Below are positions 25,338 to 36,639 of a stretch of DNA of 64,000 nt, piece after piece. Every line of letters starts with the position of its first letter. Position 1 is the stretch's first letter. Location: contig NZ_NFLN01000001.1 in NCBI RefSeq assembly GCF_002160955.1, positions 1 through 64,000 of the forward strand, read 5' to 3'. The notes beneath the pieces are model-generated. The model did not search any database and was not told the DNA's origin. It saw nothing but the letters and a program-made list of their open reading frames with translations. This stretch comes from Gemmiger sp. An120 (GTDB taxonomy: Bacteria; Bacillota; Clostridia; Oscillospirales; Ruminococcaceae). A program made the position numbers and the translations under genes.

Positions 25338-25353
25338 ACTATGCAGAAAGTCT

Positions 25354-25464
25354 GTTTCAGGGCGGGGTGCAATTCCCCACCGGCGGTACAGCCCGCGAAC
25401 ATCCTGTATGGATGCCGATCTGGTGAGATTCCAGAGCCGACGGTATAGTCCGGATGAAAGAAAC
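25354..25464 (+). promoter_or_regulatory. FMN riboswitch (RFN element)
   Basis: All conserved RFN blocks are visible: GGGCGGGGTGCAATTCCCCA, CCGGCGGTACAGCCCGCGA, a variable hairpin, GAGCCGACGGTATAGTCCGG and ATGAAAGA. P1 closes as GTTTC (25354-25358) with GAAAC (25460-25464). Binds FMN and, with the terminator that follows, stops transcription of the riboflavin transporter when flavin is plentiful. Confidence 0.96.
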
Positions 25465-25486
25465 GGCAGGGTATCTGTACATTTGC

Positions 25487-32431: not shown

Positions 32432-32697
32432 ATTAAATGCGGGGAAGGGAACCAGTACCTCGCCATCCACGCGGTACAGAGAAGCTCTGGCTGGTGAAAA
32501 GAGCGGCGCGCGGGCGGGGGAATACATCCCGGAGCAGCAGGCTGAACCAACAGTAGGCCGGGCCGTGTGCGCACGTTACAGCGCTAGGGTGTTGTTTGCA
32601 CCCGTGAGGCCGTCGCCGTGAGGCGCCGGTGAACAGAGGTGGTACCGCGGAACTGTCCGCCCTCTGCCAATTCACATTGGCAGAGGGCGTTTTTTTG
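32432..32697 (+). promoter_or_regulatory. Tyr T-box riboswitch with terminator
   Basis: Leader with T-box hallmarks: AGAGAAGCTCTGGCTGGTGAAA in the upper stem I (32479-32500), candidate specifier codon TAC (Tyr) at 32523-32525, and the T-box AGGTGGTACCGCGG at 32637-32650, whose TGGT pairs with uncharged tRNA ACCA. The terminator is CGCCCTCTGCCAAT / ATTGGCAGAGGGCG plus T-run (32658-32697). Uncharged tRNA-Tyr should favour the antiterminator and raise tyrS expression. Confidence 0.93.
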
Positions 32698-35041: not shown

Positions 35042-35077
35042 AAAGCGCGGCAAGGGTCTTGCATCCGGCCGCGCTTT
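35042..35077 (+). terminator. Terminator after azlCD
   Basis: AAAGCGCGGC / GCCGCGCTTT stem with a 16-nt loop; short T-tail. It overlaps the following promoter region. Confidence 0.6.
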
Positions 35078-35087
35078 CTGGTATGAT
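35059..35087 (+). promoter_or_regulatory. Promoter of the uraA leader
   Basis: TTGCAT (35059-35064), 17 bp, TATGAT (35082-35087). Predicted transcription start about 35094, giving a leader of about 205 nt. Confidence 0.7.
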
Positions 35088-35119
35088 GGTTAAGATTTGA
35101 GCGGAAGGGGGCGCGCGCC

Positions 35120-35197
35120 ATGCAGAAAAAATCCGGGATGCGCCTGTTCCGTTTTTTGGCCGCCCGGGGCGGCTTTCTTTCCGTTTTCCTTATTTAG
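35120..35197 (+). CDS. Putative leader peptide of the uracil permease gene
   Basis: 25 codons: MQKKSGMRLF then RFLAARGGFL then SVFLI and TAG. Preceded by GGAAGGGGG 9 nt before the ATG. The stop lies 9 nt before a terminator hairpin. Inside the ORF is a perfect 6-bp hairpin GCCGCC-CGG-GGCGGC (35159-35173) followed by a pyrimidine-rich run of 22 nt. This layout (leader ORF, pause hairpin, U-rich tract, terminator) is that of the enterobacterial pyrBI/pyrE leaders, where low UTP makes RNA polymerase pause and a following ribosome prevents termination. Translation of the peptide is not proven. Confidence 0.45.
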   Translation: MQKKSGMRLFRFLAARGGFLSVFLI

Positions 35198-35206
35198 TCA
35201 GCATAC

Positions 35207-35237
35207 GGCATCGCCTCTTTCGGGGCGGTGCCTTTTT
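35207..35237 (+). terminator. Attenuator terminator before uraA
   Basis: GGCATCGCC / GGGCGGTGCC-type stem (G-U pairs) and six T, ending 61 nt before the uraA start. Placed right after the leader ORF stop. Confidence 0.82.
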
Positions 35238-35298
35238 TATGGCGTATCTGCCTTTGGGGCAGCTGCGATAGAGATGTGAAGAGGAGAGGAGAACTTCC

Positions 35299-36639
35299 AT
35301 GCAGAAACAAAATGAGATGACCGCCATTTACAATGTGCGGGAACTGGGCGCGGGCAAAACGCTGGTGCTGGGTGCGCAGCACACCTTCGCCATGTTCGGC
35401 GCCACCGTGCTGGTGCCGCTGCTCACCGGCCTGAACGTTTCCACCACCCTGCTGTGTGCGGGTCTGGGCACGCTGCTGTTCCACTTTATCACCGGCGGCA
35501 AGGTGCCCGCGTTCCTGGGCTCGTCCTTTGCGTTCCTGGGCGGCTTCGGCATTGTGGCCCCCATGCTGGCGGATGAAAGCGGCAACCTGACCGTTCCCAA
35601 CACCGAGATGCTTCCCTACGCCTGCGGCGGCGTGGTGGCGGCCGGTCTGCTGTATCTGGTCATGAGCGGCCTGATTACCGCTTTCGGTGTGCGCCGGATC
35701 ATGCGGTTCTTCCCGCCGGTGGTCACCGGTCCCATCATCATCGCCATCGGCCTGATCCTGGCCCCCTCCGCCATCAACAACTGCTCGTCCGACTGGGTGC
35801 TGGCCCTGATCGCCCTGGGCACCGTGGTGGTCTGCAACATCTGGGGCAAGGGCATGGTCAAGATCCTGCCCATCCTGATCGGTGTGGTGGTCTCCTATGT
35901 GGCGGCCCTGATCATGGGTCGGGTGGACTTCGCCGCCATCGCTTCTGCCGACTGGTTCGGTATTCCCCTCAGCACCAGCGCTATGGCCAAGTTTGACATC
36001 TCCGCCATCCTGACCATCATGCCCATCGCCCTGGCCACCATGATGGAGCATATCGGCGACATCGCCGCCATCAGTGCCACCACCGGCAAGAACTACATCC
36101 GTGCCCCGGGCCTGAACCGCACCCTGCTGGGCGACGGTCTGGCCACCAGCCTGGCCGGCTTCCTGGGCGGCCCTGCCAACACCACCTACGGCGAGAACAC
36201 CGGCGTGCTGGCCCTGACCCGCATCTACGATCCGCTGGTCATGCGGATTGCCGCCTGCTTTGCCATCCTGATGAGCTTCTGCCCCAAGCTGGGCGCTGCC
36301 ATCAACACCATCCCCGCTGCCATCGTGGGCGGTATCTCCTTCATCCTGTACGGCATGATCTCCGCCATCGGTGTGCGCAACGTGGTGGAGAATAAGGTGG
36401 ACTTCACCAACAGCCGTAACCTGATCATCGCGGCGGTGATTCTGGTCAGCGCGCTGGGCTTCAACAGCGCCTATCCCAACGGCCTGCCCCTGTACCAGAG
36501 CGCCGAGCTGACCATCAGCCTGTCCGGCCTGGCCATTGCCGCTATCCTGGGCATCGTGATGAACGCGGTGCTGCCCGGCAACGATTATGAATTTGACAAC
36601 ACCGAAAAGGGTGAGCAGGGCCTGAACATGAAGGTCTGA
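35299..36639 (+). CDS. uraA: Uracil permease (NCS2 family)
   Basis: 446 aa, 14-helix NCS2 fold. UraA-type substrate motifs: LGAQHTFAMFGATVLVP near residues 24-40, LATMMEHIGDI with the key Glu near 251, and NTTYGENTGVLALTR with the second Glu near 300. Imports uracil with H+. GAGGAGAGGAG lies 7-8 nt upstream. The leader contains a terminator and a possible leader peptide, so expression probably answers to pyrimidine supply. Confidence 0.93.
   Translation: MQKQNEMTAIYNVRELGAGKTLVLGAQHTFAMFGATVLVPLLTGLNVSTTLLCAGLGTLLFHFITGGKVPAFLGSSFAFLGGFGIVAPMLADESGNLTVPNTEMLPYACGGVVAAGLLYLVMSGLITAFGVRRIMRFFPPVVTGPIIIAIGLILAPSAINNCSSDWVLALIALGTVVVCNIWGKGMVKILPILIGVVVSYVAALIMGRVDFAAIASADWFGIPLSTSAMAKFDISAILTIMPIALATMMEHIGDIAAISATTGKNYIRAPGLNRTLLGDGLATSLAGFLGGPANTTYGENTGVLALTRIYDPLVMRIAACFAILMSFCPKLGAAINTIPAAIVGGISFILYGMISAIGVRNVVENKVDFTNSRNLIIAAVILVSALGFNSAYPNGLPLYQSAELTISLSGLAIAAILGIVMNAVLPGNDYEFDNTEKGEQGLNMKV

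Follow-up and report, generated by a model that had tools for sequence, protein, structure and literature searches.

The uraA locus of Gemmiger sp. An120 raises the question of how uracil uptake is regulated in a Firmicutes genome that appears to lack PyrR. The locus lies within a 64,000-nucleotide stretch of DNA (hereafter, the window; contig NZ_NFLN01000001.1, positions 1 to 64,000), and a preliminary description had read its leader as a pyrBI-like translation-coupled attenuator. Our results support that reading: those of its refuting conditions that sequence analysis can address turned out in its favor, and the same device also stands on the genome's own pyr operon and on the pyrBI and pyrC operons of relatives. 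We consider it likely that transcription through the leader is attenuated in a pyrBI-type manner that responds to UTP and depends on translation, and the best explanation of the data as a whole is that an attenuator of this type took the place of PyrR in Oscillospirales.

Anatomy of the uraA leader

The features of the leader and its gene, in window coordinates, are as follows.

35059–35087, + strand: promoter of the uraA leader, with −35 TTGCAT (35059–35064), a 17-nt spacer and −10 TATGAT (35082–35087), from sequence
35094–35099, + strand: initially transcribed GATTTG, similar to the AATTTG of the E. coli pyrBI start; start site inferred from the −10
35098–35119, + strand: predicted 5' arm of a helix closing the ribosome-binding site (RBS), pairing with 35165–35187 (−26.8 kcal/mol)
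35103–35111, + strand: Shine-Dalgarno (SD) sequence of the leader ORF, GGAAGGGGG (anti-SD duplex −12.6 kcal/mol)
35120–35197, + strand: leader ORF of 25 codons, MQKKSGMRLFRFLAARGGFLSVFLI, with ATG at 35120 and TAG at 35195–35197, from sequence
35159–35173, + strand: 6-bp GC hairpin, GCCGCC-CGG-GGCGGC, followed by a U/C tract; possible pause hairpin, from sequence
35165–35187, + strand: predicted 3' arm of the RBS-closing helix, pairing with 35098–35119 and overlapping the pyrimidine tract
35174–35196, + strand: pyrimidine-rich tract within the leader ORF, from sequence; proposed UTP-sensitive slow zone
35207–35238, + strand: intrinsic terminator with an 11-bp stem (35207–35232) and T6 extending to 35238
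35299–36639, + strand: uraA, NCS2 uracil permease (PDB and NCBIfam matches)

When the sequence was re-read, the promoter, SD, 25-codon ORF, hairpin, pyrimidine run and terminator were all found where the preliminary description had placed them, with 9 nt separating the stop of the leader ORF from the terminator. Its identification of the downstream gene as a uracil permease also holds: in the PDB the product is matched best by a bacterial uracil permease (E=2e-71), and its best NCBIfam match, to the uracil permease model, falls under the curated cut-off. The product is 95% identical to a permease of an uncultured Gemmiger. On the 5' side of uraA lie azlC and a small ORF that is azlD-like by position.

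Conservation of the leader among relatives

Upstream regions of relatives were scanned for an intrinsic terminator together with an SD-preceded ORF ending at or in that terminator, and expectations were taken from dinucleotide shuffles. Among non-redundant uraA leaders with a terminator, 24 of 49 carried an SD-ATG ORF of this kind (0.5 expected). The same was true of 6/9 pyrC leaders (0.14 expected), or 8/9 when any start codon was allowed (0.5 expected). Genera with this arrangement include Gemmiger, Fournierella, Faecalibacterium and Pseudoflavonifractor. In a set of 37 leaders, the stop codon of the ORF fell between −9 and +26 nt relative to the terminator start, and at 9 nt or less in 27 of them, while T content climbed to 41–51% over the final 20 nt before the terminator. 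The SD and start codon mostly lay ~21–26 nt past the inferred transcription start of the leaders compared. The promoter of the uraA leader is unchanged among four species of the genus, and a −35 of the TTGCAA/TTGCAT type occurs upstream of uraA in further genera too.

Aligning the leader across relatives, as the preliminary description had suggested, thus showed that the ORF, the U-rich tract and the terminator are kept and the peptide is not. Within the genus the leader ORF stays open; the peptide, its length and its stop codon vary, and substitutions are mostly amino-acid-changing. In L005, L006 and L092, for instance, the ORF is in frame with an altered peptide and a shifted stop. A conserved functional leader peptide was considered and ruled out, the peptides of different genera being unrelated.

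A short ORF with its own SD and terminator could also be an independent small-protein or sRNA gene unrelated to uraA. We regard this as very improbable: the peptide is unconserved, the identical order of elements recurs upstream of uraA, pyrC and pyrB, and no promoter-like site was found in the interval between the terminator and uraA.

Three Gemmiger-type regions upstream of uraA (L020, L030 and L098) look different: the terminator lies at most ~50 nt from the promoter, and a leader ORF is not evident; these are possibly a different, shorter attenuator. At L124:9859-10033, Rfam Thr_leader matches were obtained below threshold on both strands, which probably reflects a palindromic hairpin.

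The device within the pyrimidine regulon

In the same genome, the pyrC-F-K-D-E-carA operon is preceded by an SD, a 26-codon ORF with a TTG start, a U-rich tract and a stop touching the terminator. The pyrC operons of relatives share this leader type, with UGA or UAA directly against a CUUUUCC arm, and in relatives whose operon begins with pyrB (pyrBI) the device precedes pyrB. We scanned 1.65 Mb, equal to 49% of the 3.39-Mb assembly (99.87% complete), for leader-type terminators, defined as those lying 15–220 nt upstream of a gene. The 163 terminators obtained gave 7 loose matches, and a strong SD together with a U-rich ORF was found only at uraA and pyrC. Under stricter settings applied to 864 kb, uraA and pyrC were the sole matches. 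Judged by the 1.65-Mb scan and by the pyrB and pyrC genes of relatives, the device is specific to pyrimidine genes. Because it precedes both uraA and pyrC-F-K-D-E-carA, pyrimidine uptake and synthesis would share one signal without PyrR.

Not every pyrimidine gene of the genome carries the device: the upstream region of upp has no leader of the pyrBI kind, and pyrB has no attenuator and sits behind a GntR-like gene. The pyrG gene was located in the genome. The GntR-family-like gene (G000:C34:91900-92800, L119; named by reading the sequence) has its own promoter and is followed by pyrB, making it a candidate for regulating pyrimidine genes where PyrR is missing.

Absence of PyrR and of its RNA site

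With regard to PyrR, the preliminary description had noted no binding site in the leader and had proposed a search of the genome for pyrR. Both points were borne out: no pyrR gene above cut-off is present in the assembly, and the PyrR RNA site (RF00515) has no match in the uraA leader even at E=10. More generally, none of the Rfam covariance models for riboswitch, T-box and leader families matches at the uraA leader. PyrR is the usual mode of control in Firmicutes and is carried by 55/118 genomes of the family, which would favor a PyrR-type RNA attenuation that was overlooked. Against this, the genome is nearly complete, and RF00515 sites were detected elsewhere: upstream of pyrR-pyrC in three PyrR-bearing relatives (G020, G033 and G080), upstream of uraA in a fourth (G082), and in L041, all of which served as positive controls. 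The G033 match alone reached the Rfam gathering score, with two of the other three relatives' matches and one further match somewhat below it. On the sequence evidence this alternative appears largely refuted, and we give it almost no credence.

Among genomes with a leader of this type on the pyr operon, PyrR was absent in 13/13 sampled, a simple count in which kinship is ignored. This exclusion does not hold strictly at uraA, because two genomes (G055 and G091) combine PyrR with a uraA leader ORF (L117 and L111).

Nucleotides rather than codons

If the leader were an amino-acid attenuator of the trp, his or phe kind, ribosomes would be expected to stall at Phe, Leu or Arg codons and thereby to shift an antiterminator. 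The leader peptides are indeed rich in Phe (14%), but the Phe share is the same in all three frames (14.4, 14.6 and 15.0%; 37 leaders). The U-run is blind to frame and therefore appears to be selected as nucleotides, so that the RNA matters and not the codons. One point counts against the pyrBI-type reading: the other two frames are frequently open as well (24/37 and 26/37 leaders), because U/C-rich DNA contains few stops. Pairing between the 5' arm of the terminator and the ORF, as expected of an antiterminator, showed no excess in the 37 leaders (z = 0.04 ± 0.16), and neither a single-frame run of cognate codons nor an antiterminator, the signature of amino-acid attenuators, was seen in the leaders. 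The ORF end also adjoins or enters the terminator, whereas the leader ORFs of amino-acid attenuators are described as staying over 20 bp away from it (PMC4824070), and pyrimidine genes are what the leaders control. We therefore judge amino-acid attenuation very unlikely.

An antiterminator formed by an arm of the GC hairpin and the terminator arm, seen by eye within the genus, proved no better than chance in the 37 leaders. The pause-type hairpin of the preliminary description stands in part: it is present at 35159–35173, but its invariance is limited to the four species of the genus, and the body of the ORF shows no general excess of structure across leaders (z = −0.17).

A model of UTP-responsive attenuation

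In E. coli pyrBI, the polymerase is slowed at low UTP, which lets the ribosome catch up and keeps the terminator from folding (PMC5021804, citing Roland et al. 1988). By analogy, we infer for uraA that UTP is the signal and that pausing, ribosome action and translation of the ORF are all involved. At high UTP, RNA polymerase would cross the U-rich tract fast with no ribosome close behind, the terminator at 35207–35238 would fold, and transcription would halt before uraA. At low UTP, the polymerase would slow in the tract while a ribosome translates the leader ORF to its stop region (35195–35197); the ribosome would then mask the 5' arm of the terminator and the polymerase would continue into uraA. 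A ribosome at a stop codon is reported to repress such terminators in E. coli (PMC4824070).

The closeness of stop and terminator needs to be interpreted with caution. Gene-end terminators in the 1.65 Mb scanned also lie near stop codons (median 16 nt), so that closeness by itself is little proof. The same closeness has been read in Bacillus subtilis as a sign of polymerase outrunning ribosomes (PMC7858274), and runaway transcription would work against coupling in the pyrBI-type reading. Genes in this genome show a weak purine bias (51%, vs 54% in B. subtilis), and thus two published proxies for runaway transcription, the terminator-stop median of 16 nt and the purine share of 51%, disagree in this genome.

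Predicted pairing of the tract with the ribosome-binding site

The earlier picture needs one addition, based on modelled pairing: the tract is predicted to pair with the leader's own ribosome site too. It is possible that this pairing acts as a timer, with the U-rich tract doubling as the anti-SD of the leader ORF. At high UTP, the tract would emerge quickly and shut the ribosome site before loading; at low UTP, the polymerase would dwell before or in the tract, a ribosome would load and it would later prevent termination. In such a timer, ribosome loading would compete with transcription for time, and tight coupling would therefore not be needed.

Swapped, reversed and locally shuffled tracts as well as ordinary starts were used as controls, a reading of the fold alone being unconvincing. 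Cognate pairing between SD and ORF was −18.8 kcal/mol vs −15.6 kcal/mol for swapped partners (0/20,000 permutations as low), and it exceeded that of locally shuffled tracts (z = −0.95 ± 0.17, p = 4e-6) and of reversed tracts (p = 6e-4); ordinary permease starts showed no excess (z = +0.34 ± 0.28). Predicted SD accessibility fell from 0.60 to 0.15 across 31 leaders, and from 0.88 to 0.01 in the window leader when the RNA reaches 35188. However, a purine-rich SD and a pyrimidine tract will pair through composition, and the window leader's own pairing is not above its locally shuffled controls (z = −0.1). Accessibility in full folds differs weakly from shuffles (z = −0.42, p = 0.011), and no excess is seen for pyrL of E. 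coli (z = +0.4). We hold the timer as a tentative alternative, less probable than not. It is with the same reserve that we suggest that a PyrR-free Oscillospirales regulon may read UTP via ribosome loading and antitermination, even where polymerase normally outruns ribosomes.

Possible control at initiation

Because the start region resembles that of E. coli pyrBI, UTP may by analogy also act at initiation, as a second layer of control. An RTTT motif near the inferred +1 was found in 14/33 leaders, vs 0.8 expected from shuffled 5'UTRs, and GATTTG in the window is close to the AATTTG of E. coli. UTP-dependent reiterative transcription at this start could even be the main control, with the leader ORF secondary. 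This is improbable in our view: the motif is absent in 19/33 leaders, including L005 and L006 of the same genus, which retain ORF and terminator, and the terminator would be left unexplained. The starts are themselves deduced from the promoter sequences, and starts rich in A/T may be a common trait of promoters of this kind.

Comparison with known systems

The pyrBI-type attenuator favored here shares with E. coli pyrBI (pyrL) a RATTTG-start promoter, an SD, a leader ORF, a U/C-rich tract and an intrinsic terminator in or adjoining the ORF, ahead of a pyrimidine gene. When applied to E. coli pyrL, the same script returned the order SD, ORF, U-rich tract and terminator in the ORF. The two differ in phylum, and their leader peptides are without homology; the terminator usually starts at the ORF stop here but mid-ORF in E. 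coli, and here the device is also found on a permease and on a pyrC-led operon. Pairing of RBS and tract is above chance in the leader group here and not in E. coli pyrL. At rph-pyrE of E. coli, a terminator likewise comes close behind an ORF and ahead of a pyrimidine gene, but that ORF is a complete gene, rph. PyrR-dependent attenuation of pyr mRNA (RF00515) also places Firmicutes pyr genes and uracil permease under transcription attenuation, whereas here there is a translated ORF instead of PyrR and its RNA site. The leader-peptide attenuators of amino-acid genes (trp, his, thr; the His leader of bacilli) also combine a leader ORF and a terminator, but here the ORF abuts the terminator, with no cognate codon run and no antiterminator.

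Pyrimidine control has been described as PyrR-based in Gram-positives and, in Gram-negatives, as working through premature termination or at the start site (PMC13328217). Leader-peptide systems were thought limited to Proteobacteria and Actinobacteria, bar a predicted His leader in bacilli (PMC2965389). In the open literature, partly consulted and with subscription journals mostly outside its scope, we found no pyrBI-type attenuator in Firmicutes, which is weak evidence of absence. A PyrR-less lineage of gut Firmicutes appears to have arrived at the pyrBI solution, both for uptake and for synthesis. Because the device would depend on the position of the ribosome relative to the polymerase, these leaders lend themselves naturally to testing whether transcription and translation are coupled in Firmicutes, a group in which runaway transcription is under debate.

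Other elements in the window

An imperfect inverted repeat, AAAGCGCGGC...GGCCGCGCTTT (35044–35078), flanks the −35 of the uraA promoter, and both of its arms co-vary in L092; the repeat might serve either as an operator or to terminate transcription of the azlCD-like genes. Between the leader terminator and uraA itself, a 41-nt block (35258–35298), GGCAGCTGCGATAGAGATGTGAAGAGGAGAGGAGAACTTCC, is nearly invariant in the four species of the genus. The block exceeds the length needed for an SD, and an ATAGAG motif recurs in Fournierella and in G018; it is possibly a second promoter or an RNA element. Ordinary regulatory elements occur elsewhere in the window, namely an FMN riboswitch (25349–25469) and a T-box leader before tyrS (32433–32667).
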